Virus record (IMG/VR): IMGVR_UViG_3300020421_002402
Span: 1 to 64,000 of that record
Length of the DNA: 64,000 nucleotides
DNA from: a virus
Strand: one strand, 5' to 3'
Shown: positions 1-60,390 of the stretch, in pieces
Numbering within the stretch: the first letter of the stretch is position 1
How the letters are laid out: each line of letters opens with the position of its first letter
The notes under the pieces: model-generated
Databases searched by the model: none
Told to the model about the DNA's origin: nothing
The model's input: the letters and a program-made list of their open reading frames with translations, nothing else
Made by a program: the position numbers and the translations under genes

Positions 1-3000
1 TACAAGGTAGAAGAATTTATGGACGACATGATTTCAGACTTTGTCAACGAACGTGAAGATGACGAAGACTACATCAACGAATTTATAGAAAATGAAGGAA
101 TAGAAGAAACAGATTGGGATAGTTACAGAGAAGATGTTTTAAGAACAGAATATGGTGACGATAGATTTGAAGAAGAAGGTGTTGATGAACTGTCGGAAAT
201 ATATGGATACGAAGATGAAAATTGGGCAAGAGAGTATGTTGAAGCAGAACGAGGTCAGGACCTTAGAGATTATCTAAGAGAACTTGCAGAAGAAGACGAC
301 GATATAAAACAAGCGGCATACGAAGAAGCCAGTGAGAACTATGATTATGACGACTGGATCAGTGACCAATGGTACAGTATGAGTTCTTTCTGTGATGACA
401 TGGGTATAGATTACAGTTATGGAAACAACTTAGATGAAGTTGCTAGCCTTGTATCAAAATTTGTTAGAGAGAGTAGTGCTTTTTCAAGTGATGAAGTAGA
501 AAGTGGTGACTATGGTAACACCAGTGGTAGTACAGTAAATTATGCAGTAGAGTCAGACAGCAGTATTGACGGATATGGAACAGGTGCAGAAATTATATCA
601 CCAGTGTTTAGTACTCCAAGAAGAATGTTAGCAGAAATGAAAAAGTTTTTTGAGTTCTTAAAAAGCGAAGGAGCATCAACAAACAACAGTACTGGATTAC
701 ACATCACAATGAGTTACAATCCACAAGATGGTGAAACTGTAAACCATGAAGGTGGAAAAATAAAAGCAAACAGAGTAAAAATGGCTGTGTTGCTAGGAGA
801 CCAATACTTATTAAATGAATTTTTAAGAAGCAGTAACACTTACACCAAAAGTCAATACAAAGAATTACAAGATGCAGTTGGGTCACTAAAACAAGTATCA
901 GGCACTGAAGGCATTAAAAAAGCAGAAGCATTTTTAGACAAGGCTATCAGTGATGACAAATTCCGTGCTATACATTTTAAAGGTCAAAAAGATTCTGAAA
1001 CCAACACAAACTTAATAGAGTTTAGAATAGGCGGTGGAGAAGATTACGAAACAGACTTTGACAAAGTATTCAAAGCAACAGTAAGATATGCTACCACAAT
1101 GGTTGCTGGACACACAGACCAATATGAAGGTGATTATGTAAAAGCATTGTCCAAACTATTGCGTAAAGCAACTGATGTTGCACAAGGCGATGAACAAGAA
1201 GTTGGTGAACTCAAAGGCAGATATGAAGATGTTGCCAGCGATCCTGTACTAGACACATCTAAAGCAATAATTAGTTCTAAAAAATATTTAGAATTTACAA
1301 AACTTATGCTTAGAGGAATGGAAACATTAAAACAGGCTAGACTAAAATCAGAACCAGAAGCAGATGTTAAATGGAAAAAACAATGGATGGAATATCTTGA
1401 AGGTACAGGTAGTAGTTTAGATGAGTATGATAGTTCTTTAAGAAGAGCATTAGACAAAATTAAATACTCTAAAAGAGGTGGCGTTAAAGAAGCAGAAAAA
1501 AGAGATGGGCTTAAAGCATACCTCAGACCATCTTTGAATCCACCTAGCAAAGAAGTTGATGAAATGAGACAAGAGGGTATTAAGCATGTCAGTGAAGCAC
1601 TTGGAATGTTAGCAGTTGATGTTGGTAAAGGAACTGCAAGACAACAACCAAATGCAAAAAGCATTGGTGCTTTAAGAACCTTTTTGAAAAAAGAAAACAT
1701 CTCTGACAAACAATTAGACAACAACGTAAAACTGATATTAGATGATTTGAAAATAGACTCAGGTCTCACAGTTCAAAATAGAATACAACTTGTAAGTGAT
1801 GGTATGAACAAGATGTTGCAGAGAGAAGTAGTTACTAGACCAGACTTTGTAACTGCACCACAAGTTGAATCTGCTATTAAAGGCATGTGGAATGTGATGA
1901 ACAGTAAAGAGTTTAATCCTACTGTTTTAAAAGAACTTACCACACTTGGTATAGATGTTCGTGTAGGCAAAGATTCACAAGCCAATAAAACAGAAATAAT
2001 AGAAGATTTAAAAAGATTGTTTAAAGATGCAAGTGATAAAAGACAATTCAATGATTTTTATAATCATTTAACAAGTGCTGGATACAACAGTAGACCTTTC
2101 TTTTTAACACCAGGAATGATTTACAACAAACAAGGTTTTAATGATTTTGTACAATTTGTAAAACAGTTTGATTCTTACAGTGAACCAGTAAATAGAAATC
2201 ACAATCCAAACTTATATGATGATGACGGTTATGAAGATGTTGCATTAAGCAAATACACCATGTTATTGAGAAGAAGATTTGATTTTCTTGAACAACAATT
2301 TGAAACAGACCAATCAAAAGCAATTGAAAGTATGAAAAAGATGGTTCCTTTAATTACCAATTTTGCTAATACTAACCAATCAGAAGATACAGAATGGTCA
2401 AACATATTAGGAATTGACGCAGATGAAGTAAAAGATTTACCTAACATGTCAGATGAAGAAAAAGAAAACTTTATGGATTTACTTGGTAACAGAGATGCTG
2501 AAGAATATCTTGGTCTTAGAAGATACAGATATGAAAATGTCCAAAATGTACTAGATGATATTGTAAACGGTTCAAGTGACCGTAGAACTCTAATAAATTT
2601 ACAAGATTTTGTTACTGACACAATTAGAGAAATGTTGGGTAGTTATTACAGAAACAAAGAACGTTATCCAATGTATTATAAGTTTGATGAAGTTAAAAAT
2701 GTTATCAAAAGCAGATTTAAAGGTTTAAGTGAGTTTATGAAAGGAATAGACAAAATCTTTGTTGATAACGGATTTGATAGTCAAGACAGTTCAATTAAAC
2801 GTAAGCAACAACTGACCAAAGACAGAGATAACTTTAAGAAAACAATTCGTAACAGTTCGTATGCTACTATAAACATACCTGCACATTCTTTTACATATAT
2901 GAAAAAAAGTGATTATGAAAAAGTAAATGCATTTTATGACAACGCGGATTCAGATGAACAACCTGGTCGATACTTCTTGCAAGATATGATAAATGGGGCA

Positions 3001-5814
3001 TCAAATGTAAACAAAGGTTCTAGACCTGGAATGTTCTTTGTTATACCATCAGCACATTGGGGACCACTTAATGATGCTGTAAATGGTAGTGAAATTATAC
3101 AAATTATGCAAAAAGTTGGCAATATGAGTCAAAACTGGAGATTAGTAAACTACGGTAAGTTGTTTGAAAAATTTGCTTCTCTGTATGGAATAGATTATAA
3201 AACTTTGCAAAACGATGACAAATATGTAACAATAGATGGAGAAGATAGAAGAAAAATATCAAAATTATTTAGAATTGAGTTTACTGGAAAAACAGATGGT
3301 AGAGCAGGCATGGGAGATGTTGAAGAACTTATTTCTAGTGAAGAACTTAAAAATCAATCTTCAGGTGAACCTTTAGACAGAAGTAGTGCCGCCAGTTGGA
3401 ATATACAGAACGACCAAAAACTTTCTGCGGCATATGACTGGCAAAAATACCACGGTAAAGATGCAGACAAAATTAAAAATAAAGTTAATGATTTAGTCAT
3501 AAACAAAGGTATGGGTTTTTACAAAGCAATTCAAACCGTAATGGAACAAACACCAAAAGGCATAAGAGTTATAGAAGACAAAAAAATTATAGACGCCGGT
3601 GAAGTTGAACACATGGACGGTGAAGCATCTAATACTATTCAAGACCAAGCAAATTGGACTAAGTTAGCAGACTTCTTTAAAATAGAAAAAGGTGTAGACA
3701 ATCAAGGACCAAACATATTAGAAAAAAGTGCAAGAACATTTGATGGTGACCACGAATGGAGACCAGAACCAGAACCAGATGTTGTTGGGTTGAAAAGATG
3801 GGTGGCAAGTGTAAAAGCCGCCGCAGAATATATTAAATTAAATTATACAGTAAGTGGTGGTAATTACTTTAGAAAAAATCCAGACGGCAGTCTTGGTGAT
3901 GATGTAGGTTCACTTTACGGTGATGGTGGTAGAGGCGAACCTCGTGGTGCTCAAGCAAGAATGCAAAGAGGAGAAGTTACAAGAGGTGCAGGTATTACAA
4001 GTGACGAAGTAACTGAACAAGATTACGATAGAATGCGTAGCAAATATTTTAATTTTAATGCCATGATGATGAATGGTATGCAAAACTATATAAGACAATC
4101 AGATGTAAACAAACTGGTAGATTTTCTTAAAAACCCAGACAACGATGAAGAATTTAAAGAGGCTGTTTTACAAAGCATGATGAGAGAAAGAGAATCAGGT
4201 GCTAGACCTGGATCATTCCAAGGTCATTTAGCCTTAGGTAGACAATACCTAGCTCAGAATGAAAGTGTGTTTGACAAGTTTGACCAATTACCTTTAGAAG
4301 AGCAGTTGCGTATAGTTACAGAATCAAAAGTATTAGAAAGACCTTTATCAAAAGATGAAAAGAAAGACAAAGAAAAATATGTAAAAGGCATGAAGAAGTC
4401 CAAAGGTGATTTTGAGAAACGTTATGGCAAAGATGCCAAAGCAGTTATGTATGCTACTGCAACTAAAATGGCTAAAGAAGATATAGATGAATCCACAAAT
4501 GACTTTGATAGAATAGATATTATAAACAATATTTTAGCAGACCATTTTCCTGTAAGTGACCTTAAAAAGCAAATGCTGGCTTTCCAGGCTATTCCAATGC
4601 CTGAAATGTTAAATGCATTTAGAGAACTTAGAGCTCAAGGTGGCGATGATGCATGTGCTAGAGGTATTGTAAGACATTTTGTAAATGCTTTACCAGAACA
4701 CATGAAAGAAAAAGTTAATTTACATGAGTGGAGCAAACAGCACCTTTCAAGACTGTTAAATGAATACACAGATTTAAGTGCAGAAAAAGACAATATTATT
4801 AAAACAATCAGTGGATTAGATGCTACAAACGAACAACATGCAGAATTATTAGATAGAATATTTAAGTTGTTAAACAGTGAACATATTGGTAAAACATTAG
4901 ATAAAGCATTTAGTTATCCGTTAATGGACGAACCTTTTTCAGACAAGCAAAAAGAAAAAGTAATAAGTGATGTCACAAAAATTATAGGTGCATTAGATAG
5001 CGATTATGGTACTATGAGTAGATTCATAGAAAGATTAGAAAAAACAGGAACTGTCGTTAATATAAGTGAATTGGATAAACCACTTAACACATTTGCAAAT
5101 GTGTTTGGTGACGATATAAGTACAAAAGCCTTTAGAGCATTAACGTCATATGGTGTTGGTGTAAATCAAAAAGGACCAGGTGAATACGGATTAGCATGTC
5201 TTAGTAATAAAATTAAATTGGCATCTGGCGAAGGTGATTTAGAAATTGAAGGCATAGGAAAAGTAGAACTTAAAGCGGCTACTAGTAGCACTGGTGGAAG
5301 AATAGGTTATGGTGGCGGAAGTCAAAAGGCTAAACAGGCAGTCATTGACAAATATGCAGAACAAATTCCAACAGTAGCAAGTAGTGTATCTGGCTCTGGA
5401 TATCTAGGATTTACAAAATTTATATCAGCACTAAATGAAGATTTACCAGTTACTGATATAAACAATCAAAAACTAAGAAGACAAATTGCAGAAGATTTAT
5501 TTAAAATGGATATGGAAGAGTTTGCAGGTCCTATATGTGATGTAATAGCCAAAGATGCAAATGCAGTAAATATTGAAACGGCATATTTGAGACAAAACTT
5601 TTTATGGTATAAAGACAGAGATGACTTTGATGCATTGTTATTAGTTAGCATACCTAATATGAAAACTGCAATGATTAAAAATGAAAACGATTTAATTGAA
5701 TTTAGACGTAGTGGACACTCAATGTCAACTTCTATTAGTATTGTGCCTACACAGGCTGGTGCTGGTAGAGAACAATGGGCACAATTAAGTCTTAACAAAG
5801 GCATGGTTAAATGA
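1..5814 (+). CDS. Giant amidoligase-like and nuclease-like phage protein, 5' truncated
   Basis: The frame is open from base 1, so the true start lies upstream; the first ATG inside is at 19 and gives 1931 residues. Counting from that ATG, residues about 175-235 carry the pattern of the amidoligase (ATP-grasp-like COOH-NH2 ligase) family: a GAEIISPVF strand, then a helix and GLHITMS. Near 333 a LIEFR strand fits the same fold. Near the C-terminus (about 1715-1770) there is GDLEI followed by VELKA and a GGRIGYGGG stretch, which resembles a PD-(D/E)XK nuclease core. A lysine-rich segment near 1460-1490 (KRYGKDAKAVMYATATKMAK) is of a kind common in marine T4-like phage virion proteins. The N-terminus is very acidic. 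It overlaps the next gene by ATGA. The role is unknown; a virion or injected multidomain protein is my inference. Confidence 0.7.
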   Translation, partial: YKVEEFMDDMISDFVNEREDDEDYINEFIENEGIEETDWDSYREDVLRTEYGDDRFEEEGVDELSEIYGYEDENWAREYVEAERGQDLRDYLRELAEEDDDIKQAAYEEASENYDYDDWISDQWYSMSSFCDDMGIDYSYGNNLDEVASLVSKFVRESSAFSSDEVESGDYGNTSGSTVNYAVESDSSIDGYGTGAEIISPVFSTPRRMLAEMKKFFEFLKSEGASTNNSTGLHITMSYNPQDGETVNHEGGKIKANRVKMAVLLGDQYLLNEFLRSSNTYTKSQYKELQDAVGSLKQVSGTEGIKKAEAFLDKAISDDKFRAIHFKGQKDSETNTNLIEFRIGGGEDYETDFDKVFKATVRYATTMVAGHTDQYEGDYVKALSKLLRKATDVAQGDEQEVGELKGRYEDVASDPVLDTSKAIISSKKYLEFTKLMLRGMETLKQARLKSEPEADVKWKKQWMEYLEGTGSSLDEYDSSLRRALDKIKYSKRGGVKEAEKRDGLKAYLRPSLNPPSKEVDEMRQEGIKHVSEALGMLAVDVGKGTARQQPNAKSIGALRTFLKKENISDKQLDNNVKLILDDLKIDSGLTVQNRIQLVSDGMNKMLQREVVTRPDFVTAPQVESAIKGMWNVMNSKEFNPTVLKELTTLGIDVRVGKDSQANKTEIIEDLKRLFKDASDKRQFNDFYNHLTSAGYNSRPFFLTPGMIYNKQGFNDFVQFVKQFDSYSEPVNRNHNPNLYDDDGYEDVALSKYTMLLRRRFDFLEQQFETDQSKAIESMKKMVPLITNFANTNQSEDTEWSNILGIDADEVKDLPNMSDEEKENFMDLLGNRDAEEYLGLRRYRYENVQNVLDDIVNGSSDRRTLINLQDFVTDTIREMLGSYYRNKERYPMYYKFDEVKNVIKSRFKGLSEFMKGIDKIFVDNGFDSQDSSIKRKQQLTKDRDNFKKTIRNSSYATINIPAHSFTYMKKSDYEKVNAFYDNADSDEQPGRYFLQDMINGASNVNKGSRPGMFFVIPSAHWGPLNDAVNGSEIIQIMQKVGNMSQNWRLVNYGKLFEKFASLYGIDYKTLQNDDKYVTIDGEDRRKISKLFRIEFTGKTDGRAGMGDVEELISSEELKNQSSGEPLDRSSAASWNIQNDQKLSAAYDWQKYHGKDADKIKNKVNDLVINKGMGFYKAIQTVMEQTPKGIRVIEDKKIIDAGEVEHMDGEASNTIQDQANWTKLADFFKIEKGVDNQGPNILEKSARTFDGDHEWRPEPEPDVVGLKRWVASVKAAAEYIKLNYTVSGGNYFRKNPDGSLGDDVGSLYGDGGRGEPRGAQARMQRGEVTRGAGITSDEVTEQDYDRMRSKYFNFNAMMMNGMQNYIRQSDVNKLVDFLKNPDNDEEFKEAVLQSMMRERESGARPGSFQGHLALGRQYLAQNESVFDKFDQLPLEEQLRIVTESKVLERPLSKDEKKDKEKYVKGMKKSKGDFEKRYGKDAKAVMYATATKMAKEDIDESTNDFDRIDIINNILADHFPVSDLKKQMLAFQAIPMPEMLNAFRELRAQGGDDACARGIVRHFVNALPEHMKEKVNLHEWSKQHLSRLLNEYTDLSAEKDNIIKTISGLDATNEQHAELLDRIFKLLNSEHIGKTLDKAFSYPLMDEPFSDKQKEKVISDVTKIIGALDSDYGTMSRFIERLEKTGTVVNISELDKPLNTFANVFGDDISTKAFRALTSYGVGVNQKGPGEYGLACLSNKIKLASGEGDLEIEGIGKVELKAATSSTGGRIGYGGGSQKAKQAVIDKYAEQIPTVASSVSGSGYLGFTKFISALNEDLPVTDINNQKLRRQIAEDLFKMDMEEFAGPICDVIAKDANAVNIETAYLRQNFLWYKDRDDFDALLLVSIPNMKTAMIKNENDLIEFRRSGHSMSTSISIVPTQAGAGREQWAQLSLNKGMVK

Positions 5815-7337
5815 GAGCAAATGATTTAAACAAATGCCCTAGAACAAAAGAAACACAATGTCAATGTGAATCTTTGCATACAATCAATGAAGCAGAAGAA
5901 ACTGTAAAGGCACTTGTAAAGTTTGAACATACTGAAGGTGATGTGCAAGGCATTATCAAAATGAAACAAGACCCAGGCAAGCCTACAATTATAAGAGGAC
6001 TTATAAAAGGACTAGAACCAGGAGAGCATGGATTCCACATACATGAGTTTGGCGATTTGAGTGATGGGTGTGCTAGTGCAGGCGGACATTATAATCCAGA
6101 CGGTGTTGACCATGGTGACATAGATGGTGGACATGTTGGAGACTTAGGAAATATCACAGCAAATGAAGAAGGCGAAGCAAGATTTAAAATTGTTGCTAGA
6201 CGTGTAGATTTAAGTGGTGATAGAAGTATAGTTGGCAGAGCAGTTGTTGTACATGCTGACAGAGATGACTTGGGCAAAGGCGGAGATGAGGAAAGTCTTA
6301 AAACAGGTAATGCTGGAGATAGATTAGGTTGTGGTGTAATTAGACTTAGACAAGGCATTGAAGAAGATTATCAACGACATGTAAGCGACAAACATTTTAA
6401 TAGAAATGAATTACCACAAATTAGAAAAAGAGACATTAAAGATTCACCATTTAGTTTTAAACAAGGCACTATTACATTAGACAAAATTAAACCTGTACAA
6501 AGTCAAAGAGTAGATGGATTAAGCAAAAGTGCAGAAAATATGTTTTTTGATGGAGATTATAGACCGTTTATATTGGACAAAAAAGGTTATCTTGTAAATG
6601 GTCATCACAGATTTGATGCCGCAAACATATTAGGCATAGACAAAGTTAAAGCAATTATTGTAGATGCTGACATTGAACAATTAATGAAACATTTTTCACA
6701 CAAAGTAAGTGACCAAGCAGTAATGGACAGTTTACAAAATAAACTTACAACAATGCTTACATCAGAAGATGCTAGTAATTGTAAACACGGAAAGTATTTT
6801 TGTAGCACAGACAAAGTTTGGAAATGCAGAAAGAAACCTAAAAAAACAAGAATGTCAGAAGCATTAGCAGAAGCAGAAGTTATTAACTTTCCAGGAACTT
6901 ATGTAAAAAAAGAATATGTTGATATAAATGGTGTAAAGATGCTAAAAGATGTTTGGGAATATATGAGCCAAGACAGAGAAGAAGAGCATGGGTACGATGA
7001 CAATATGAATACTGTTAAAAAAGGTATTAGTAATTTTACAGGCAACGAAGATCCCAAAATCTTAAAAAAAGCATACCAAATAGAATTGAGAAATTTTATA
7101 GATGAGTTTGAAAACCAAGATATGGACCCACAACCATTTATAGATGAACTAGAACAAATAGACGAAAACTTTGCTGACGGTAAAAAAAAGGGCAAAAGTA
7201 GACCTGGTAGAGTAAAAAAAGCAGGTGCAAGTTGCAAAGGCTCGGTTACAAGTTTAAGAAAAAAAGCAAAAAACAGCAGTGGTGAAAAGTCAAAAATGTA
7301 TCACTGGTGTGCAAATATGAAGTCCGGAAAAAAATAA
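5811..7337 (+). CDS. Cu/Zn superoxide dismutase fused to a ParB-like domain and a phage C-terminal module
   Basis: Residues about 30-180 are a Cu/Zn superoxide dismutase domain, which converts superoxide to peroxide and oxygen. Every key residue appears at expected spacing: metal ligands His76, His78, His93, His101, His108, Asp111 and His148, and the disulfide pair Cys87 and Cys174. Residues about 215-290 resemble a ParB/sulfiredoxin N-terminal domain, with GHHRFDA at 264-270 in the position of the usual nucleotide-binding motif. The last 50 residues (KSRPGRVKKAGASCKGS to the WCANMKSGKK end) form a basic module often seen at the ends of marine phage virion proteins. There is no signal peptide, although most bacterial enzymes of this family are periplasmic. 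It overlaps both neighbours by a few bases. The SOD call is strong; the fusion's role is unknown. Confidence 0.88.
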   Translation: MRANDLNKCPRTKETQCQCESLHTINEAEETVKALVKFEHTEGDVQGIIKMKQDPGKPTIIRGLIKGLEPGEHGFHIHEFGDLSDGCASAGGHYNPDGVDHGDIDGGHVGDLGNITANEEGEARFKIVARRVDLSGDRSIVGRAVVVHADRDDLGKGGDEESLKTGNAGDRLGCGVIRLRQGIEEDYQRHVSDKHFNRNELPQIRKRDIKDSPFSFKQGTITLDKIKPVQSQRVDGLSKSAENMFFDGDYRPFILDKKGYLVNGHHRFDAANILGIDKVKAIIVDADIEQLMKHFSHKVSDQAVMDSLQNKLTTMLTSEDASNCKHGKYFCSTDKVWKCRKKPKKTRMSEALAEAEVINFPGTYVKKEYVDINGVKMLKDVWEYMSQDREEEHGYDDNMNTVKKGISNFTGNEDPKILKKAYQIELRNFIDEFENQDMDPQPFIDELEQIDENFADGKKKGKSRPGRVKKAGASCKGSVTSLRKKAKNSSGEKSKMYHWCANMKSGKK

Positions 7338-8800
7338 TGCGTCTATACGAAATATTTCAACAATTAAACGAATACAGTCAGAGTGCTACACTAAACAAGT
7401 GGGGAGAACGTATTGTTCAAGCCGCCACTTTCAATGAACAGCACTTGTCCGACAATTGGTTTTACCAAGACAGTTCTATAGAAAACGAACAACAAATGGC
7501 TACAGCAGTACTAAAAGAACTGGAAAGCATAGACCCTACTGAAAACAAACAGTATGTGATGACATTGGTGCGTTGGTATACAGCAGTAGTAAAGGTACAC
7601 GAAAAAAATAAAAAATTATATGCCAAGTTAAGAAAAGCAGAACTAGAAGGTGGAACGGCAGATGATTGGGAACCAGGCTATAATGAAATCTGGCCCGAAG
7701 ATTACACAGATCTGGGCAAGGGAGATGACAATCAGGGTCCTGGTTATGTAACAGCCAGAGCAACAGAAGATTGGAACATCGATGATGCTGAGTTTGATTT
7801 GGATAAGATAGGAACGCAGAGTTCATTCAAATTAGAAGATGCTGAACAAATACGTGACGCATTAGTAAGATTTGAAAGCATTAAGCAACAACTTCCAGCC
7901 AACGAACGCGACATAGGCAGGTACAAGAATTTTTATCGTTTTGAAGACTTTGTAGATAGTGCTTACGATGAAAACTATGTTCCACCTGAAACAGACAACG
8001 AAACACTAAAACGCAAAGATGTAGAAGTTTTATACAACGGACCATTAGGCACAGTCACAGTACCTAAAAGCCATGAAGCCAGTTGTGAATTAGGCAGTGG
8101 CACTAAATGGTGTACCACAGGCAAAAACACTTACTGGTATGACAGTTACAGTAGCAGAGGTGATTTAATCATCTACAACGAAAAGCCAGGCAATGCCAAG
8201 TATCAATTACATGTCACATTGGATGGTTTAGAAGCCAGAGATTCTCGTGACAGACGCATAGACCATGCCAAAGAAGTTGAGTTTACACAAAAACATCCTG
8301 TGATAAGCAGAATCATACGGGCACAACACGACAAAATATTCTCACAAATGGCACAAGTACCATGGAGCAGTGATGCTATACCAAATGACAGTGAACTCAG
8401 ATTTGGAGTAGACAATAGTGAAGAGAACGAGATAGTGAGAAAGTTTGTAGAGTTCAATAACAAACATCAAGGTGGCGTAATGCGTTATGTAGATGAATAC
8501 TATACAAAGAATACATTGCCCTCTTTTCTAAATAGAGCAGGCACAATACCTAGTCAATCCTTTGTAGAGTTGATGCTCACATACGCACAACAACGTGGCA
8601 AGCCATGGCCAGAAATGATGGACTTTATGATAAAGATATTACACAATGCGGCTGAAGGGATGGATGTTTCCAGTAACGTAGAATTAAAAGCCATTAATCG
8701 ACTGGTTGCTCAATTAGAAACACTGGGCACAAATCCTGAACTAGAAAAGTTTAAGAAAAACGCAATAAAGAAATTAAAAGCAGGCAAGAAAAAAGGATAA
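7337..8800 (+). CDS. Conserved phage protein with a GTKWCT motif, function unknown
   Basis: The start MRLYEIFQQ at 7337 overlaps the previous stop as TAATG and gives 487 residues; an in-frame ATG at 7307 would overlap the SOD gene by 31 bases and lacks the typical MRLYEI opening. About residue 250 it has GSGTKWCTTGKNTYWYDSY followed by a beta-rich LIIYNEKPGNAKYQLHV segment. This WCT motif recurs in phage proteins of unknown function. The protein is acidic in its first half and lysine-rich at its end. MRLYEI-type openings recur in several other proteins here (8809, 42371), which suggests a shared N-terminal tag in late proteins. Confidence 0.72.
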   Translation: MRLYEIFQQLNEYSQSATLNKWGERIVQAATFNEQHLSDNWFYQDSSIENEQQMATAVLKELESIDPTENKQYVMTLVRWYTAVVKVHEKNKKLYAKLRKAELEGGTADDWEPGYNEIWPEDYTDLGKGDDNQGPGYVTARATEDWNIDDAEFDLDKIGTQSSFKLEDAEQIRDALVRFESIKQQLPANERDIGRYKNFYRFEDFVDSAYDENYVPPETDNETLKRKDVEVLYNGPLGTVTVPKSHEASCELGSGTKWCTTGKNTYWYDSYSSRGDLIIYNEKPGNAKYQLHVTLDGLEARDSRDRRIDHAKEVEFTQKHPVISRIIRAQHDKIFSQMAQVPWSSDAIPNDSELRFGVDNSEENEIVRKFVEFNNKHQGGVMRYVDEYYTKNTLPSFLNRAGTIPSQSFVELMLTYAQQRGKPWPEMMDFMIKILHNAAEGMDVSSNVELKAINRLVAQLETLGTNPELEKFKKNAIKKLKAGKKKG

Positions 8801-8808: not shown

Positions 8809-9006
8809 ATGAAGATTTATGAAATTATTCAAGAAACAGCATCAGTAGGAGGCATGAGTGCAGGTGCAGTTGCCACAGTTGTAAAACCAATTGCAAATGA
8901 TGTGCAACGTGTTGTACAAAAACCTAAAAAGCCTAAGAAAACAAAACATGCACACAAAAAGCCAGGTCCTAAAAAGAAACTAAAAAGTTCTATTATAAGA
9001 CGATGA
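8809..9006 (+). CDS. Small basic phage protein, function unknown
   Basis: 65 residues. The N-terminus MKIYEIIQETASVGGMSAG is typical of small proteins in marine T4-like phages. The second half is a lysine/proline-rich tail (QKPKKPKKTKHAHKKPGPKK) ending in RR, likely nucleic-acid or polyanion binding. The ATAAATA element lies 12 nt upstream and there is no room for a Shine-Dalgarno site, so the mRNA may be leaderless. The stop overlaps the next start (ATGA). Confidence 0.65.
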   Translation: MKIYEIIQETASVGGMSAGAVATVVKPIANDVQRVVQKPKKPKKTKHAHKKPGPKKKLKSSIIRR

Positions 9007-9731: not shown

Positions 9732-11012
9732 ATGAAAATTGCAAACTTTAATCAAACACCTTTGGATAGAATCAAAAAAATGAATAACTATCTTAAGGAA
9801 AATCATGGTGTTAAAGTTACTGGCTTTCATACAAAAAGCAAACTAGAAACAGTTCGTGAAAAAGCAGAAATGCATGTAGTCAGACTTAGAAACACTAACA
9901 AAAAATTTAATATTGATCCTGAATACGCAAAGTATTTAGGTGTCAGAGATGTCATAGACACAATGCTTGAAGAAGGCGTATATGCTGATAGTCCAGCATT
10001 GGAAGGCATGAGACAAGAACTTAATGCAGAAGTACAAGGCTTAATGGACAGTGGATATACTGTTGAAGAAGCATGTTCAGAATGCATGAATAGATACAGA
10101 CAAGACTCCCGATTTGCATATGATGATGAATTTGTTTTACCGATAGTGATTAAAGCCGCAAAAGCATACGAGTCAAGTTGCAATAGAGAATCTATTGAAT
10201 CTGATATTAATGAACCTGTGTTAAGAGAACTTGCAAAAGAAGTTGGCATAGATTTAGAAACTGTTGAAAACTATGATGCTATTGAAGAAAAACTTGGAAC
10301 ATTCGCAGACATAACTGGAAAAAGTAGAGATGCAGTTGTAGGTTTCTTAAATGGTTTAGAATTAGACAGCATTACTCCAGGTATCCAAATGTTTGGTGCA
10401 AAAATTGGTGAGCAAAACAAGTTCACAGGTGCTAGACAAGATGCTATTGAAAAAGGCGACAAAGAGTTTGAAGTAGATGGCAAAACTTTTAAAGTATCAG
10501 GCGATACAAAAGATGAAAAAGAACAAGCAAAAGAAAGTATGTTTGATGACATAGTAGATGACATGATTGCAGAAGAAGTTGAAGTTGAACAAGCAGAAGT
10601 TGTTATGGCAATTAGAGCATTAGCAGACGATGTACAAAATCACATTGAAAGAATTGGTCGTATGGTAAATGAAGACATTCCTGCAATAGCAGACCAAATG
10701 GTTGCTGAGTTTGGAGTTGACCAAGCATCACAAATTAAAGACCAAATGGAACAGGCTCTTCAAATACTATTAGATGCTAACAAAGTTGGTAAAGATGGTG
10801 TTGATGCAGTTGTTGGACAATTAACAGGAATGGGTTCACTAGCAGACGCAGGTGCCCCAATGGATGCTCCAGTTGATGCTGAAGTACCAGTTGATGCTCC
10901 AGTTGATAATGTACCAGCCGCGGCAGGACCTGAAGAAGAACCACTAGGTAGAGCGGAAGTAGAACCAGCAGGTGAAGTTCCAGCAGATCCAGTAGTCGAC
11001 GCAGGAGTTTAA
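9732..11012 (+). CDS. Virion-associated structural protein, likely
   Basis: 426 residues, acidic and largely helical, with no transmembrane segment. The C-terminal 75 residues are a low-complexity alanine/proline/aspartate/valine tail with repeated VDAPVDAEVPVDAPVD-type units. The section VMAIRALADDVQNHIERIGR with its conserved surroundings is of a type I associate with marine T4-like virion proteins. It is expressed from a late promoter with a leader shared with the fibre-like gene at 13706. A precise virion position cannot be assigned. Confidence 0.55.
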   Translation: MKIANFNQTPLDRIKKMNNYLKENHGVKVTGFHTKSKLETVREKAEMHVVRLRNTNKKFNIDPEYAKYLGVRDVIDTMLEEGVYADSPALEGMRQELNAEVQGLMDSGYTVEEACSECMNRYRQDSRFAYDDEFVLPIVIKAAKAYESSCNRESIESDINEPVLRELAKEVGIDLETVENYDAIEEKLGTFADITGKSRDAVVGFLNGLELDSITPGIQMFGAKIGEQNKFTGARQDAIEKGDKEFEVDGKTFKVSGDTKDEKEQAKESMFDDIVDDMIAEEVEVEQAEVVMAIRALADDVQNHIERIGRMVNEDIPAIADQMVAEFGVDQASQIKDQMEQALQILLDANKVGKDGVDAVVGQLTGMGSLADAGAPMDAPVDAEVPVDAPVDNVPAAAGPEEEPLGRAEVEPAGEVPADPVVDAGV

Positions 11013-11014
11013 AC

Positions 11015-11377
11015 ATGAAAATAGCCGAAGTATTTCTACTGGAGGCATATTTTGATGAACTTGAACTAGCAGTCAAAGATAGGTTTGCACAATTTTTAGG
11101 ATCAGACGTAAACGAAATCCCCACAGAAGAATTTAGAAAGTCTTTAGCACTTGATGGTTTTCTGTTGAGTTTTGAAGAACTAAAATCTGCATTAGAAAAA
11201 ATGGATGTAGTAAATGCTATAGACAAAGACTCTATTACACCAAAAGGTAAAATACCAAACGATATGGCAGAACCTGAGGACGCAGGTCCAGAAGGCGAAG
11301 AAGAAACAGGTACTGATGTGACCGCAATGGCACAAGACCAGGCATTAGATGCCGTAAAAGAACCTGGACTAGTATAA
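11015..11377 (+). CDS. Small phage protein following the structural gene, function unknown
   Basis: 120 residues; the first half is helical and the second is acidic and low complexity (EPEDAGPEGEEETGTD). It starts two bases after the previous stop and is therefore probably co-expressed. The opening MKIAEVFLLEAYFDELELA resembles the MKI-type openings of other late proteins here. No family recognised. Confidence 0.6.
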   Translation: MKIAEVFLLEAYFDELELAVKDRFAQFLGSDVNEIPTEEFRKSLALDGFLLSFEELKSALEKMDVVNAIDKDSITPKGKIPNDMAEPEDAGPEGEEETGTDVTAMAQDQALDAVKEPGLV

Positions 11378-11384
11378 CCCACAA

Positions 11385-11391
11385 ATAAATA
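11385..11391 (+). promoter_or_regulatory. T4-like late promoter element, 12 nt before ATG
   Basis: ATAAATA with its first A exactly 12 nt upstream of the ATG at 11397, the same geometry as at 8797, 20650, 26046, 27766, 33046 and 49434. Confidence 0.65.
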
Positions 11392-11396
11392 CTTGC

Positions 11397-12053
11397 ATGG
11401 AAATAGAATCCTTAATGGAGAATATTGTTAATCGTGCCACAGTATATGAAAGACATGTTCCACACAAAGAGTTTTTTACTGATACTTCAGGTACAGTAGA
11501 ATACACACTTAACAGTCTTTGGCACCGAGATGTTGAATTAGACAGTTTTAATAACGGTTTTAATTTAGCAGTTGGTTGCAGTCATACATTTGGACTAGGC
11601 GTAAATAATCCTTGGCCCTCTTATTTTGAAAACACATACAATGCTGGAGTACCTGGTGCTACTGTATATGATATGATAGATATAGCATTTTCAATATATG
11701 AACAAAAAAGATTTAATAGACTATTGTTCTTTGCACCTCATGGTGAAAGAATGATTATTTTTAAAAATGGCAAACAAGATGCACTTATGCCTTATAGTAA
11801 ACATTTTGAAGAATTTAAAAGTATTGACTTAGATACAAAAATGTACTATAATAGTAGGTCAGTTAATCATTTATTAGCATTTTGCAAATCTGAAAACATT
11901 GACCTGCAAATTTTTAATAATAACAGTATAGGATTTTTAAAAGAGCATAAAGATTTAATCGTAGACAAAGGCGCAGACGGCGTTCATTATGGCGAAGAAA
12001 CTCATAAAAATTTTGCAGGAATATTTGATGTTAAAAGAAAAGATACAATATAA
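11397..12053 (+). CDS. SGNH/GDSL-like hydrolase fold protein
   Basis: 218 residues. It has an AVGCSHTFGLG motif near residue 60, matching block I of SGNH esterases (nucleophile Ser), and a late DGVHYGEETHKNFA segment, matching the Asp-x-x-His block. Phages of this group often carry such proteins, possibly for esterase action on host surface glycans. Substrate unknown. It is preceded by a late promoter placed 12 nt before the ATG, with no Shine-Dalgarno site between. Confidence 0.65.
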   Translation: MEIESLMENIVNRATVYERHVPHKEFFTDTSGTVEYTLNSLWHRDVELDSFNNGFNLAVGCSHTFGLGVNNPWPSYFENTYNAGVPGATVYDMIDIAFSIYEQKRFNRLLFFAPHGERMIIFKNGKQDALMPYSKHFEEFKSIDLDTKMYYNSRSVNHLLAFCKSENIDLQIFNNNSIGFLKEHKDLIVDKGADGVHYGEETHKNFAGIFDVKRKDTI

Positions 12054-12696
12054 AAAGTTAGAAAGAGTTACGACTGCGGCAGGCAGAAAGTACGTTGGAG
12101 ATGACGGAATACCAGTTCCAAGTGTAACAACTGTATTGGATAAAACTTCTGATAAAACTGCCTTAATTGCATGGCGTAAAAGAGTTGGTGAACAAGAAGC
12201 AAATCGTGTAAGTAAAGAAAGTGCAGGACTTGGCACAAAAGTTCACAATGCAATAGAAAAATATATACTTGGAGAAGAAGTTACTTTTGGTAATAACATG
12301 GTTAGTGTTATGGCTAAAGATATGAGTGAACTCATGATTAACGAAGGCTTTACAAATATAGATGAAGTATGGGGTACAGAAGTTGGACTAATTGCACCAG
12401 GACTTTATGCAGGTACTACTGATTGTGTTGGAATGCATAATGGTGAAGAAGCAATCATAGATTTTAAAACAAGTAAAAAGATTAAAAAAGAAGAGTGGAT
12501 TGAAGATTATTATTTACAATGTTGTGCTTATGCATTAGCACATAATGAAATGTACAATACCAATATTAAAAAAGGTGTTATACTTATGGTGAGTAGAGAT
12601 GTTAAACTAAAAGAGTTTGTTATAGAAGGAGCAAGATTTGAAATGTATTGCGACCTTTGGACACAACGATTAGAAGAGTACTATGCAAGTCTATGA
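12028..12696 (+). CDS. PD-(D/E)XK exonuclease, Cas4/RecB-like
   Basis: 222 residues from the ATG at 12028, which has an AGGA ribosome site eight bases upstream; an earlier ATG at 11989 would add 13 residues and enlarge the overlap with the SGNH gene. The core is recognisable: LGTKVHNAIEKYI, then GLYAGTTDCVGMHNGEEAIIDFKTSKK with the Asp, Asp-Phe-Lys catalytic pattern, then YYLQCCAYALAH (QhxxY-type motif). This is the RecB-like nuclease family found in marine T4-like phages, probably for recombination or DNA processing. Confidence 0.8.
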   Translation: MLKEKIQYKKLERVTTAAGRKYVGDDGIPVPSVTTVLDKTSDKTALIAWRKRVGEQEANRVSKESAGLGTKVHNAIEKYILGEEVTFGNNMVSVMAKDMSELMINEGFTNIDEVWGTEVGLIAPGLYAGTTDCVGMHNGEEAIIDFKTSKKIKKEEWIEDYYLQCCAYALAHNEMYNTNIKKGVILMVSRDVKLKEFVIEGARFEMYCDLWTQRLEEYYASL

Positions 12697-13672
12697 ATCT
12701 AAGCAATGGAATCTTAAAAATTATCCTGTTGCAAAAATAGGATTAGAACATTTCGAATTGGTCACTGAAAACATTAGTGGCGGTACAATTATTAAAAACA
12801 AATTTTTAACTGTAGATCCATCTACAAAAGCATTAATGGCTCCTGGTCAACTAGTACAAAAAGGTGGACCACTTACAAGTGATGCTTTAGGTGAAGTAAT
12901 TGAAACAGATAGAGATGATTTAGATGTTGGTGACATTATTGTACACAAAGGCGGGTGGAGAGAATATCATGCATTAGGAAAAGATGAGTGGTGTTTAAAA
13001 GTTCCAGATACTTCTATTGATTTAACATATTATTTGAGTGTGTTAGGTTCAACTGCCAGAACTGCATTTGTAGGTGCTACAGAAGTTTTAAAATTAAAAG
13101 AAGGAATGAATGTAGGCATAAGTGGTGTATCAGGTGCAGTAGGATTATCTATTGCTCAAATGGCAAAACTAGAAGGCTGTAATGTATTAGGATATACTAG
13201 TTCTTTGGAAAAAGCAAATTGGATAAAAGACAACATTGGTATAGAAGTGATAGTTTCTAAAGGCTTATCTCATGCACAATTATCAGAAGAAACATTCAAA
13301 GTTTTTCCAGATGGGTTAGATGCCTATCAAGAGCATGTAGATAATACTCATTTGTTTAATGCTATTATGTGTTTAAAGCCAAACAGTACAATAGCACTAT
13401 GTGGACTTATGAGAACGTATAATGGCCCAATTGCACCAGGTCCAAATTTAACAATGTCTATATGGAAAAACATTAATATACAAGGATTTTTCATTGCAAA
13501 TTATCCTAAAGAACTAACACAAGACAAATTTTTTCAATATATGAGTCAAAAATTACCTCATTTTAAATGGAAACAAAGCACAATAGACGGTATAGAAAAC
13601 ATGGATAGTGCTTTTGTGGACATGTTTCAAAATTTTGACAAAGGTAAAATCATAATAAACTTGCAAAAGTGA
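12683..13672 (+). CDS. CurA-like NADPH-dependent oxidoreductase (zinc-independent MDR family)
   Basis: 329 residues. It follows the medium-chain dehydrogenase/reductase plan of curcumin/prostaglandin reductases: an FLTVDPSTKALM segment like the SVDPYMRGRM block, and a cofactor loop SGVSGAVGLSIAQMAK. DAYQEHVDN replaces the usual Asp-x-Tyr-x-Glu-Asn-Val-Gly block. These enzymes reduce double bonds of alpha,beta-unsaturated carbonyls, including lipid-peroxidation products. It overlaps the nuclease gene by 14 nt. Uncommon in phages; with the SOD nearby, a detoxifying role is a reasonable guess. Confidence 0.75.
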   Translation: MQVYESKQWNLKNYPVAKIGLEHFELVTENISGGTIIKNKFLTVDPSTKALMAPGQLVQKGGPLTSDALGEVIETDRDDLDVGDIIVHKGGWREYHALGKDEWCLKVPDTSIDLTYYLSVLGSTARTAFVGATEVLKLKEGMNVGISGVSGAVGLSIAQMAKLEGCNVLGYTSSLEKANWIKDNIGIEVIVSKGLSHAQLSEETFKVFPDGLDAYQEHVDNTHLFNAIMCLKPNSTIALCGLMRTYNGPIAPGPNLTMSIWKNINIQGFFIANYPKELTQDKFFQYMSQKLPHFKWKQSTIDGIENMDSAFVDMFQNFDKGKIIINLQK

Positions 13673-13678
13673 TAAATA
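13672..13678 (+). promoter_or_regulatory. T4-like late promoter element with leader
   Basis: ATAAATA 34 nt upstream of the GTG start at 13706; bases 13671-13689 repeat 9691-9709 exactly. A ribosome site atcggag lies before the start. Confidence 0.65.
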
Positions 13679-13705
13679 CAATTAACAAAGATATCGGAGT
13701 TAGTT

Positions 13706-16375
13706 GTGGCAACATCAGATGATGCAAATTTAAAAGTAATAATAAGCAGAATACAACAAAGGAGAGGACTTAAACAAGACTTACCTCAGCCTTTGCGACC
13801 TGGCGAAATCGGTTTTGCTACTGACAGTAGACAAGTTTATATTGGAGCCGATACGGCAGACACAATTAGTAAAACTTACAACAAGTCAGTGTTTTTAGAA
13901 AACACACTTGGTTCACAAGCAAGAACTTTATCTTTAGCAAACAATCAAATTATTAAATTTACAGTACCTCATATTAGATTTCCAAAAGGTTCATCTACAT
14001 TTGACGGTGTTAGTAAAAGTCAATCTTGGACTGCTAATACAAATATTACTTTAAACTCAGGAATAGTTGATGGTAATGGTAATACTATAACAAGAGGTGT
14101 ATTTGATGCTAATGTTTCAGGTAACGATTTTGTTAAACATAACCAAACAGGCGTAGCCTTTGATGCAGATGATGTTACAGTTTTAATTGATGGTGTAAAA
14201 CAGAGTGGTGACAGTAGTGGTACTGGAGCGATTGTAAATACATCTTTTGATTTTAATTTTGTATCAGGATTTAATTCTAATAGTGACCACAGCATATTTT
14301 TTAGAACTCCACCTACAAATTCACAAGACGTAGCAATTACATATTATGGTAATTCACATGTTAACCACACAATATCTAACACAGTTATTGCCAGCGGAGC
14401 CGCAGTTACAGGTTTCCATGCTAACATGTCAATACCAAGTTACAGATATCTTAATTCAGAATACATAGTGGTAAATGAACAAATTGGTACAGGATTCATT
14501 GGACTTGAAACAAAACATATTGATGTTGTTGCAGAAGGACAAGGTGTTGCCAATGTTGCAAACATTTCACTAGGAAAAGTAGTAGCAGTAAAAGACAGTC
14601 AAGATCCAAGTTTATTCTCAGTTGATGCATCTTCAGGAAATGTGTATGCTGGTATATCAGCAAACGCAACAGTGGCATCAGGAGAAATTACAGTTGATAT
14701 GGGTGCTGATTCTTTGGTACTTACAAAGTATGATACTGCAAATATTGATTACTCTGCAGGCTATAATAGTTATGTATGGTTTGAAGGTAAATCACAAGGC
14801 GGAAGTTTTTCTGTAGTAAATACTCCTCATTATTTGCATAGGAAATTATTACCTATAAAAGCAAATAGTACAGGAACAAGTTTTACAATTGATGTACCGG
14901 CAAATACTTTCCAAACTGCAAGAGCAGTTACAACAGGAATTCAATCAAGTGGTACTGTTACAGTAACAGGTAATGTTGATGGATTAAGCACAAATGATTT
15001 TGTAAAATTTATTGGCAGTAACAATACACAATTTAATGATACTGATAGCATTTATCAAGTACAATCAGTTGGAACTGGAAACTTTACAGTAACAGAACCA
15101 AGTGTTACAGTTGCTATTGCAGATAATTTAGATTACATAAACTATGGTACTGACAATACAGGTGCTAATGTACAGATATTCAGTGCTAATCATGGAATGC
15201 CTGGAACAACAAATGTTACATTTGATACAGCAGTAGGTGGTATTAGTGCAAGTACAGATACTGATATATTAGGAACACCTGCACAAAACACATTCTTTAT
15301 TCCAGTTAGTTCGGCTGTAACGGCTAACGTAACAGGTAATGCAAGTCCTGTGTTAAGTAACATTGTATTAGCAGATGGACTTACAGTAACAACAGGTTAC
15401 ATGTTAGATTTATCTGGTAAAACTACATTAAGTGGTGCAATAGGTGAAATTAATAGTAAGCAACAATGGATTAGGATGAGTCTTAAACCAGATGTAAATG
15501 ATGAAGCCTACATTTATAGTAATGACCAATCACAATATAGATTATTTGATGATCCACAAGCAGATACAAATACGTGGAATGCTATGGGTATATTACCAGG
15601 TTATTACACAAGAGCAAGTCATACAGTAAAAGCAAAATTAGAAACATGGTTCAAACGTGTACTAGCAGACGAAAAAGTTAATATCATTAGTAATGCTTTT
15701 ATTAATGATGTATATGGTACTGAAACATTTGACACTTACGGTATTTCTTTAGATACAACAAATGCTGAAATAGATTTTACAAGTAGTGATGAAGCAGGTA
15801 ACTTTGCAGAACTAGTAAATAAACTTTACTTTAAATCTTCTAATCCAGATAAAAGAGGACTTGCTACAATAAAAACAAACATTGAACTTTTAACAACAGC
15901 ATCACAAGAAGCAGGACAAAGTGTAAGTACATTTACACAACCTCAACAATTAACAATAGGTTCTAACAGTAATGTATTGCTTACAGCACTAGGCACAGAC
16001 ACCAGTGTTTACGATACAGTATTTGTAGATTATTCTCTAACAGGACAAACTTTAGACCCTAACGATTCAAATATAACATTGTTCTATAATAGAGTTGGTA
16101 CAATGAGTTACATTGGAAATCAAAATGCAGACAGGTTTGATGCTGGTAACGGTAGCATACAATCTAATGGAGCAGTTACAATACAAGACATTTCATCTGA
16201 AATCACAGACACTTCTAACATAAGTGGTAATGTTACTACTGTATCAGGAAATATACAATTTAATGCAAGTATGGCACCAGGTTCTAATACTGTAAACATA
16301 ACTGCAAATAATACTATACAACCTGCTACAAGTAATGTAGTAATGAAATACATTGTTAGAAGATGGAAATCTTAA
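13706..16375 (+). CDS. Long fibre-like virion protein
   Basis: 889 residues with a GTG start chosen for its upstream cggag ribosome site. The N-terminal region (about residues 14-55) has IQQRRGLKQDLPQPLRPGEI followed by GFATDSRQVYIG, a pattern seen at the start of many phage fibre and appendage proteins. The rest is rich in Thr, Ser, Asn, Gly and Val with short beta-strand repeats, as expected for a trimeric fibre. It probably forms part of the virion surface; the receptor is unknown. The next gene starts just downstream. Confidence 0.7.
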   Translation: MATSDDANLKVIISRIQQRRGLKQDLPQPLRPGEIGFATDSRQVYIGADTADTISKTYNKSVFLENTLGSQARTLSLANNQIIKFTVPHIRFPKGSSTFDGVSKSQSWTANTNITLNSGIVDGNGNTITRGVFDANVSGNDFVKHNQTGVAFDADDVTVLIDGVKQSGDSSGTGAIVNTSFDFNFVSGFNSNSDHSIFFRTPPTNSQDVAITYYGNSHVNHTISNTVIASGAAVTGFHANMSIPSYRYLNSEYIVVNEQIGTGFIGLETKHIDVVAEGQGVANVANISLGKVVAVKDSQDPSLFSVDASSGNVYAGISANATVASGEITVDMGADSLVLTKYDTANIDYSAGYNSYVWFEGKSQGGSFSVVNTPHYLHRKLLPIKANSTGTSFTIDVPANTFQTARAVTTGIQSSGTVTVTGNVDGLSTNDFVKFIGSNNTQFNDTDSIYQVQSVGTGNFTVTEPSVTVAIADNLDYINYGTDNTGANVQIFSANHGMPGTTNVTFDTAVGGISASTDTDILGTPAQNTFFIPVSSAVTANVTGNASPVLSNIVLADGLTVTTGYMLDLSGKTTLSGAIGEINSKQQWIRMSLKPDVNDEAYIYSNDQSQYRLFDDPQADTNTWNAMGILPGYYTRASHTVKAKLETWFKRVLADEKVNIISNAFINDVYGTETFDTYGISLDTTNAEIDFTSSDEAGNFAELVNKLYFKSSNPDKRGLATIKTNIELLTTASQEAGQSVSTFTQPQQLTIGSNSNVLLTALGTDTSVYDTVFVDYSLTGQTLDPNDSNITLFYNRVGTMSYIGNQNADRFDAGNGSIQSNGAVTIQDISSEITDTSNISGNVTTVSGNIQFNASMAPGSNTVNITANNTIQPATSNVVMKYIVRRWKS

Positions 16376-16385
16376 GAATAAAAAA

Positions 16386-16811
16386 ATGTTCGAACAACAC
16401 ACAACGGCAGAAAGCCGTATTATCCAGTGGCGAAAACTAAGACAGAATTCTAAAACAGAACAGGACGTTTTAGACCAGTTTGCCAAGATAAAAATCCTAC
16501 CTAGATACCTAGATTATTGGACTCCCAAAACCTGGCCCAATCCTTTCGTTATAGTAGAAGAAGGGTACTTTTGTGCAACAGGAATAGCCATTCTTTTGTA
16601 CCAAACTTTAGGGCATTTAAAATTCCTTAATCCAGCCGAAACTCAGTGGAAAGTGATAAGTAATCATGTTACAGGAAACGACGGTGCAGTTTTTATAACA
16701 AATGGGAGAATGTATAACTTAAATCCAGGGCACTCAGTATCTCTTACTGAAGCAAAAGATTTGCATATTACATTGATAGATTATAAAGATTTATTCCTAC
16801 CTTTAATTTAA
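16386..16811 (+). CDS. Conserved phage protein, function unknown
   Basis: 141 residues from the ATG at 16386; an in-frame ATG at 16353 would overlap the fibre gene and is less likely. It has a mixed alpha/beta composition with many aromatic residues (FVIVEEGYFCATG, YLDYWTPKTWPNP). I recognise no domain. It ends directly before the nrdA promoter, so it probably closes the preceding late unit. Confidence 0.6.
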   Translation: MFEQHTTAESRIIQWRKLRQNSKTEQDVLDQFAKIKILPRYLDYWTPKTWPNPFVIVEEGYFCATGIAILLYQTLGHLKFLNPAETQWKVISNHVTGNDGAVFITNGRMYNLNPGHSVSLTEAKDLHITLIDYKDLFLPLI

Positions 16812-16840
16812 TTGACAACTTCAATTTTCTGTTGTATAAT
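16812..16840 (+). promoter_or_regulatory. Sigma70-type promoter for nrdAB
   Basis: TTGACA at 16812-16817 and TATAAT at 16835-16840, spaced 17 nt, both matching consensus. The leader to the ATG at 16883 is about 35 nt. It would allow early expression by host polymerase. Confidence 0.85.
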
Positions 16841-16882
16841 GTCAGTTAAACTTATAACATAGATACAAATACGGATAAACAC

Positions 16883-27777: not shown

Positions 27778-28359
27778 ATGGTCCCATATTACTTTGACAT
27801 ACCTGAATTAGAACTACCTTTTGATGTAGATGATAAGCCATATGTTCAGCACCCTGCTGACTATATGTCACCTTCAGGGTTAGGTTTGGGTGGTAATAGT
27901 TTTCAATATAGAGTTGTACCAGAGACTTGGTATAAAGATGTAAAAGAATATTTAGAAAGCAAACTTACAATACCAGTGGGAAGTTTAACACTTTTAAATA
28001 CAATGTGCAATTCATCAAGTCCTTGGCACAGTGAAGGCCCAGGAACATTTGGTAGGAAGTGTGCTTTAAACTTTATGGTTGCTGGAGACTTTGAACGTAG
28101 TTATGTACAATGGGCAACAAGAGGACTGCAAGAAGATATTGAAAACAATGACAAAGAACCTACTTGGTGGGAAGATGAAAACTTAGAAGTTTTAGCAGAA
28201 CATAGAATGACTCCAAGTAAGGCTACAATTTATAATACTATGCATTGGCACAGAGTATTTAATTTTACAGGTTGGAATAGATTAGTTATTAGTGCCGCAA
28301 TTAGGGAAGATATTCAAGAAGTTTTTAACTTGTACGAAAGTGATAAACTTTTTAAATAA
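27778..28359 (+). CDS. Dioxygenase-like beta-helix protein, paralogue A
   Basis: 193 residues. First of three tandem paralogues. They share an N-terminal YYFDIPELELPFDV motif, a central WHSEGPGTFGRKCALNF motif and a NTMHWHRVFN then WNRLVISAAI end. The His-x-Glu, distal His and Arg layout resembles the double-stranded beta-helix of 2-oxoglutarate/Fe(II) dioxygenases or cupins, though Glu replaces the usual Asp. Function unknown. A late promoter sits 12 nt upstream. Confidence 0.55.
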   Translation: MVPYYFDIPELELPFDVDDKPYVQHPADYMSPSGLGLGGNSFQYRVVPETWYKDVKEYLESKLTIPVGSLTLLNTMCNSSSPWHSEGPGTFGRKCALNFMVAGDFERSYVQWATRGLQEDIENNDKEPTWWEDENLEVLAEHRMTPSKATIYNTMHWHRVFNFTGWNRLVISAAIREDIQEVFNLYESDKLFK

Positions 28360-28362
28360 ATA
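28356..28362 (+). promoter_or_regulatory. T4-like late promoter element, 13 nt before ATG
   Basis: ATAAATA overlapping the stop of paralogue A, with its first A 13 nt before the ATG at 28369 of paralogue B. Confidence 0.55.
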
Positions 28363-28368
28363 TTACAG

Positions 28369-60388: not shown

Positions 60389-60390
60389 TA

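Follow-up and report, generated by a model that had tools for sequence, protein, structure and literature searches.

Why should a phage encode a Cu/Zn superoxide dismutase (SOD) joined to a ParB-like domain and a basic C-terminus, and at what point of infection would such an enzyme act? The question is raised by one gene (5811-7337) in a 64,000-nucleotide stretch of DNA from a large, uncultured phage of marine origin, hereafter the window, which covers positions 1 to 64,000 of the IMG/VR record IMGVR_UViG_3300020421_002402, a 110-kb fragment (G000). A preliminary description of this DNA had proposed that the enzyme could be packaged in the virion. That proposal is now partly supported and strengthened by a leader that resembles a capsid-targeting sequence (CTS)-like propeptide, an invariant junction of the kind cut by T4 gp21, and neighboring genes akin to PA5oct proteins annotated as structural or marked by electrospray ionization tandem mass spectrometry (ESI-MS/MS); packaging itself we infer from these features. 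With moderate confidence, based on sequence comparison, we read the product as an active, cytosolic-type Cu/Zn SOD that is loaded into the head of large T4-supergroup phages as an internal, ejected, polyvalent-like protein.

A recurrent fusion of SOD, ParB-like and basic parts

The fusion of SOD, ParB-like domain and basic tail in one gene, as first described, is real: a single 508-residue open reading frame (ORF) holds parts that profile searches recognize. Its start lies within the end of an upstream 1931-residue ORF (19-5814), overlapping the stop of the latter, and the next ATG follows directly at 7337. Profile hidden Markov models identify the SOD clearly in Pfam (Sod_Cu, PF00080, residues 45-177, E = 5.2e-45, 153.6 bits vs. 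a gathering score of 28.9), a phage SOD family of PHROGs also matches the fusion protein (6.6e-17), and the top matches among PDB chains are to Cu,Zn-SODs (E about 1e-40 to 1e-43). The AlphaFold2 model (mean predicted local distance difference test score, pLDDT, 77.7) contains a confident SOD barrel and a confident ParB-type domain at about residues 184-300.

A scan of viral contigs gave at least 600 pattern matches, at least 597 of them encoding relatives, and the best 80 loci were used. SOD was present in 53 of these; dropping six with identical SOD DNA left 47 distinct SOD loci. At 14 of the 47, all in other contigs, SOD shares one open frame with the C-terminal basic module, here called TAIL, and at a further 14 a separate TAIL gene lies within 2.2 kb of SOD (13 downstream, 1 upstream). 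Locus L019/L088 matches the entire fusion protein, linker included; the linker is 83% identical in L088 and largely absent or dissimilar in L005, L012, L003, and L001. At L048/L118 and L053 the order is reversed (ParB-like, SOD, TAIL), with the cysteine leader missing and the E-A junction kept. An assembly join or frameshift between the domains is therefore rejected, given that independent contigs carry the same fusion in one open frame. The combination had been called unusual; it is not a one-off, since the SOD-TAIL linkage recurs in uncultured virus contigs.

Conservation within the SOD was assessed on another set, made up of 47 distinct SOD proteins and including the one in the window. Residue-level inspection bore out the claim that all seven metal ligands (H76, H78, H93, H101, H108, D111, and H148) and the disulfide pair (C87/C174) are present, as is the active-site R171; all of these, together with K164-T165 in a loop, are invariant in the 47 proteins. 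Their spacing, described as human-SOD-like, is the same overall except that the zinc loop, from H101 to H108, is shorter by two residues, assuming the human SOD1 numbering used for the comparison. Absence of a signal peptide also holds (maximum 10-residue hydropathy 0.16 within the first 45 residues); most of the cellular SODs inspected, by contrast, carry lipoprotein-like leaders. Comparison of the SOD part with five homologues gave a nonsynonymous divergence (dN) of 0.16-0.26 and a synonymous divergence (dS) above 1 (dN/dS about 0.1-0.2). Given the invariance of ligands, disulfide, arginine and loop and the low dN relative to dS, the domain is very probably an enzyme kept functional under purifying selection.

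A cellular origin of the SOD was considered and rejected. Within one phylum, 107 of 398 genomes gave a match, the highest (65%) being to the phage-bearing contig of a metagenome-assembled genome (MAG). The best of the other matches were 39-53% identical, and nearly all alignments began after the leader. Runs of at least about nine lysines occur shortly before the SOD module, inside the protein, at L015, L016, L090, and L118, and a similar run is found in the G000 ORF 85970-86401.

The description of a GHHR ParB-like domain was also upheld. The Pfam ParB match is weak (E = 0.061, below the cut-off), and the assignment is backed by PHROG 620 (ParB-like, 3.8e-8), a PDB profile match to the pNOB8-type ParB-N (1.8e-4), and the predicted fold: a second model, of the C-terminal part, retrieved pNOB8-type ParB-N with Foldseek (2.2e-6), along with sulfiredoxin, bacterial ParB, and free serine kinase structures. 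Sulfiredoxin has its catalytic cysteine within a GCHR motif. Because the window protein has NGHHR (residues 263-267), without that cysteine, sulfiredoxin is ruled out and the domain is regarded as ParB-like. Coordinates of all features are collected in Table 1.

Table 1. Features of the fusion gene and of the genes that follow it (window positions; aa, amino acid residues; a slash in a motif marks a predicted cut; IP, internal protein).
Feature	Position	Strand	Basis
SOD-ParB-TAIL fusion gene	5811..7337	+	508-aa ORF, ATG; domains; recurrence in other contigs
Predicted capsid-targeting propeptide, aa 1-27 (MRANDL...CPRTK...CQC...TINE)	5811..5891	+	Conservation; T4 IP likeness; cleavage inferred
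CPRTK-x(n)-CxC cysteine motif, aa 9-19	5835..5867	+	45/47 SODs
Predicted prohead-protease junction INE/A, cut between aa 27/28	5889..5894	+	E27 47/47; T4 gp21 motif
Cu/Zn superoxide dismutase domain, aa 31-180	5901..6350	+	Pfam; ligands 47/47; AlphaFold2 block pLDDT 80-96; dN/dS
ParB/sulfiredoxin-fold domain, aa 184-305	6360..6725	+	PHROG 620, PDB profile, Foldseek; NGHHR at 6597-6611
Variable, partly disordered linker, aa 306-451	6726..7163	+	pLDDT <50 at 323-369 (AlphaFold2)
TAIL module, 57 aa, net about +15, three short helices predicted	7164..7334	+	Conservation; one copy per record; pLDDT
Next gene, 487 aa, CTS-like start (MRLYEIFQQLNE)	7337..8800	+	PA5oct 130473-131921 homologue, E 3e-15
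65-aa basic protein, CTS-like start	8809..9006	+	ORF and leader pattern
Homologue of PA5oct structural protein 156341-157528	9732..11012	+	E 1e-16; ESI-MS/MS in PA5oct record
CTS-like protein	11015..11377	+	Position of PA5oct 157529-157843 (ESI-MS/MS) and leader only; no BLAST match
Exonuclease	11989..12696	+	PHROG 298, E 1.8e-60; in PA5oct-collinear block up to NrdB at 20286

The leader and its predicted cleavage junction

The typical SOD leader of this family reads M[KR]xx[ED]F...CPRTK...CxC...[IL]xE/A. C9, C17, and C19 are kept in 45 of the 47 SODs, and E27 in all 47, including both that have no cysteine motif. Two positions before E27, residue 25 is I in 29, L in 13, V in 4, and M in 1 (I or L in 42/47), and the residue after E27 is mostly A (30) or S (5). 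A34 is also invariant; because it aligns with what we take to be Ala4 of human SOD1, E27 would lie just outside the SOD fold. An N-terminus of the form M[KR]xx[ED] plus a hydrophobic residue occurs in 28 of the 47, the window protein having MRANDL. The CPRTK/CxC motif was not seen in the cellular SODs inspected.

The ends of these leaders resemble the capsid-targeting propeptides of T4 internal proteins and the T4 site at which gp21 cleaves. T4 gp21 cleaves after L/I-X-E, and IP leaders of 10-19 residues direct proteins to the prohead core (excerpts of PMC9026906). In the T4 record, IPIII and IPII start with MKTYQEFIAE/A and IPI with MKTFKEFTSTTTPVSTITE/A (MKTFKEF...STITE/A), the cut marks being our reading, and many phage SOD leaders end in ITE/A, as in T4 IPI. 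IPI, IPII, IPIII, and Alt share with the window protein an M[KR]xx[ED]F-type leader that ends in L/I-x-E/A, and a basic character with diverse cargo behind a conserved targeting part; these head proteins are ejected with the DNA (excerpts of PMC9026906 and PMC3012670). The window protein, known from sequence alone, differs in its cargo (SOD and a ParB fold), in its C-terminal TAIL, and in a leader that is longer (27 residues) and has three cysteines. By leader and junction it would work like a T4 internal protein, and we do not claim membership in that group.

Starts of this kind are not confined to the fusion. A strict CTS-like pattern was found at 7 of 152 G000 ORFs vs. 1 of 734 internal methionine positions (p = 2.7e-5), at 100 of 850 vs. 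47 of 4251 in the fetched loci, and at 27 of the 59 TAIL proteins without the cysteine leader (out of 68 distinct complete ones) vs. 73 of the 791 remaining ORFs at the loci (p = 7e-12), all p values being optimistic because the expression was composed after examples had been seen.

The TAIL module and its exchangeable payloads

The C-terminus had been described as a virion-type basic tail. It is basic (K15 R3 D1 E2 in 57 residues), and it can now be recognized as a specific new module with swappable payloads. In one viral contig scan at least 580 stretches encode a relative. Among 99 distinct TAIL proteins, some of them incomplete at contig ends, 27 columns are invariant. The module starts abruptly at ENFADGK, whose E and N are kept in all 96 proteins aligned (two of the 99 had no anchor motif and one gave an empty row), and the region before it is little conserved. 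A hydrophobic-x-E/N sequence precedes it in 84 of the 96, with I or L in only 31; a second processing site may lie at this point. AlphaFold2 models a small helical C-terminus with pLDDT of about 85-95 over residues 471-508.

Twenty-eight of 30 records searched contained TAIL, with exactly one copy in each, and G000 likewise has one; the notion of a tag on many proteins per phage was therefore rejected. What precedes the module varies. Pfam (E 0.01) assigned the payloads of the 99 proteins to NT5C nucleotidase (17), Sod_Cu (15), ParB_N (6), and pterin dehydratase (3), with single cases of FMN reductase, amidoligase, cytidylyltransferase, and acetyltransferase, and PHROG 620 matched 34 of the 99. 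In a viral structure library, a cytidine/deoxycytidylate deaminase (68% over 69 columns) and an acetyltransferase (84% over 56), both from uncultured phages, gave short high-identity matches that we take to represent TAIL.

Conservation resides in the protein. Codon-position identities of 0.881/0.923/0.564 and a fourfold-site identity of 0.518 (0.342 expected) were obtained from the 59 of 99 TAILs that fit the pattern; the divergence at third positions indicates that the conserved entity is the TAIL protein, and recent DNA exchange is not favored as its source. TAIL was unmatched in 50,697 INPHARED phage records and was found in only two species genomes, a Pelagibacter MAG and a Marinimicrobia MAG, where the genes (L083 and L084) lie on binned contigs. 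Since the Marinimicrobia MAG also contains gp23, in two copies outside the TAIL contig, the TAIL-bearing contigs may belong to phages, and their binning is a possible host hint or a possible error.

Several observations concern the surroundings of TAIL genes and proteins of similar layout. One cluster of long proteins (median 1380 residues) is found again and again just upstream of TAIL genes, at 18 of 97 loci. The 1931-residue ORF upstream of the fusion has a short RYG...VMYATATKMA stretch in a region matching PHROGs 727 and 12788, of unknown function. Three more window proteins, among them 42374-44142 (-) and 39679-41619 (-), combine a CTS-like or MKLFDF-type start with a short basic C-terminus of another kind, e.g., QCRKKGAANWGNSKKKKK in the one matching PHROGs 38880 and 727; these C-termini are perhaps analogous to TAIL.

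We tentatively suggest, as an idea more likely to be wrong than right, that TAIL marks a new type of cargo carrier with a single slot, used by uncultured jumbo phages of the sea. Each phage would make one such protein, in which a cleavable leader like those of T4 and the fixed C-terminal module flank a payload (SOD, deoxyribonucleotidase, ParB-like, pterin dehydratase, cytidylyltransferase, acetyltransferase, and others) that is swapped between lineages, so that the capsid is armed with one enzyme suited to the host. In the SOD version, the cysteine leader would load copper in cis, and the metallated enzyme would be injected.

Head protein or intracellular enzyme

PA5oct, a Pseudomonas jumbo phage (Arenbergviridae), shares with G000 a collinear block: homologues at 9732-20283 follow the same order as PA5oct 156341-164076, and several are annotated as structural, with ESI-MS/MS detection, as is the PA5oct homologue of the gene directly after the fusion. 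The G000 clamp loader is closest to those of PA5oct-group jumbo phages (55%); NrdA was uninformative as a taxonomic marker. No SOD or TAIL match in PA5oct was reported by searches of phage records. Two SOD-bearing records (G009 and G015, the latter also with TAIL) have T4-type gp21 and gp23, the gp23 leaders containing YLAE/A and YLSE/Q, and the gp23 of G015 is 68-73% identical to those of jumbo phages such as Phosso, 2.275.O, and PA5oct. No portal or terminase was identified on the G000 fragment. Elsewhere in the window, a row of genes at 58629-63599 encodes ClpS and then two proteins with a SufBD core, an ABC ATPase, and a class-V aminotransferase; the part at 58931-63599 looks like a SUF-type Fe-S assembly set encoded by the phage. 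At 27778-29744 lie three ORFs in tandem whose starts are alike (PYYFDIPELELPFDV type), the first without a Pfam match, and a cytidylyltransferase-like domain is fused to a mannose-6-phosphate isomerase-type cupin domain at 53311-54078.

If the protein is packaged, it would be made late, and its N-terminal propeptide would bring it into the core of the prohead. The prohead protease would cut after E27, so that the mature SOD would begin near the first strand of its fold, and the basic TAIL, possibly with the ParB-fold domain, could tether the protein to the packaged DNA or to proteins of the core. On entering the host with the DNA, the SOD could remove superoxide before new phage proteins exist, protecting the incoming DNA and superoxide-sensitive enzymes; the ParB domain may have nucleotides or DNA as its substrate, a role suggested earlier for polyvalent proteins. 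Later in infection, SUF-type Fe-S assembly and class Ia ribonucleotide reductase would be plausible beneficiaries.

A number of results weigh against packaging. The cysteine leader also precedes SODs deep within larger proteins (L015, L016, L090, L103, L156, and L161), and so it is not solely an N-terminal targeting signal. Because the ESI-MS/MS notes in the PA5oct record extend to enzymes such as NrdA/B and do not state the sample, the neighbor evidence is supportive and no proof. Strict CTS-like starts in PA5oct occur in 3 of 87 ESI-MS/MS proteins vs. 2 of 249 (p = 0.11) and short-form starts in 5 of 87 vs. 3 of 249 (p = 0.03, a weak enrichment); among proteins of at least 100 residues there is no difference (1/80 vs. 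1/143). Neither gp21 (PF03420) nor gp23 was found in G000; across the records, which are fragments, Pfam detected gp21 in 2 of 30 and gp23 in 2 of 31, with neither in records of 275 and 180 kb. T4-type late promoters (TATAAATA) are not enriched in the window (5 found vs. 9 expected). Nineteen of the 47 SOD loci have no TAIL in the available sequence, 12 of these with at least 4.9 kb of downstream sequence. Host cytosol, moreover, offers little free copper for metallation.

The main rival reading is an intracellular auxiliary enzyme, made during infection and never packaged, in which the SOD protects phage Fe-S assembly and class Ia ribonucleotide reductase while ParB and TAIL keep it on phage DNA. 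It accords with the SUF genes standing in a row in G000, with the NrdA/NrdB genes, which follow the fusion at a distance of about 10 kb and share a collinear block with the exonuclease, and with the many SODs of the family that stand alone. It leaves unexplained the invariant [IL]xE/A junction outside the fold, the T4 IP-like leader, and the neighbors homologous to PA5oct structural-annotated proteins, and we consider it possible but distinctly less probable than a head protein.

Alternatively, the leader could be a metal-loading element whose CxC passes copper to the SOD in cis, the E-A junction being merely structural. The copper chaperone CCS uses a CxC to deliver copper to SOD in trans. 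Such a role would suit the presence of the motif in 45 of 47 SODs, its retention even at internal SODs, and its absence from the cellular SODs inspected. It does not predict the N-terminal M[KR]xx[ED]F, and E27 is kept in the two SODs without the motif. As the sole explanation it seems improbable; as an added function it is compatible with a packaged internal protein. Still less credible is a non-enzymatic SOD fold, a structural or decoy piece like the inactive poxvirus SOD-like virion proteins, one of which is among the structural neighbors: ligands, disulfide cysteines, arginine, and loop residues are all invariant. An artefact joining two genes, for which one might cite the 14 loci with a stand-alone SOD gene near a separate TAIL gene, has a negligible chance in view of the one-frame loci and the full-length match described above.

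Precedents exist for the function and for the architecture in the favored reading, that of a packaged internal protein. Chlorovirus PBCV-1 encodes a functional Cu/Zn SOD (A245R) from a late gene and packages it in the virion; this is a eukaryotic algal virus, and excerpts of the same report describe no ParB or TAIL fusion (PMC7019647). Polyvalent proteins, which occur in phages and conjugative elements and for which packaging and injection are predicted, also join unrelated enzymatic domains, including the ParB/Srx superfamily, in one polypeptide (Iyer et al. 2017, excerpts of PMC5512222). The window protein likewise has at least two unrelated domains (SOD, ParB fold, and TAIL); it differs in having one fixed C-terminal module with an exchangeable payload and, by Pfam, no metallopeptidase match, and the word superoxide does not occur in the main text of PMC5512222. 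PBCV-1 SOD is thus the closest functional precedent, and T4 internal proteins and polyvalent proteins are the closest architectural ones. Lambdoid prophages (Gifsy-2 and Fels-1) also bear a Cu/Zn SOD, SodC; that of Gifsy-2 is annotated as a precursor and virulence determinant, with about 30% identity and no fusion. By title and abstract, in a search outside which most subscription papers fell, we found no paper on a virion-packaged bacteriophage SOD or an SOD-ParB-TAIL fusion.

If packaged, the protein would give bacteriophages a counterpart to the virion SOD of chloroviruses, with a redox activity available from the first moment of infection and not made later, and it would make testable whether host superoxide holds back phage infection in the ocean. 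What is most novel here is the TAIL carrier with its single slot: if true, it would be a new, highly conserved module, present on hundreds of environmental contigs, whereby one protein slot per phage carries exchangeable enzymes.

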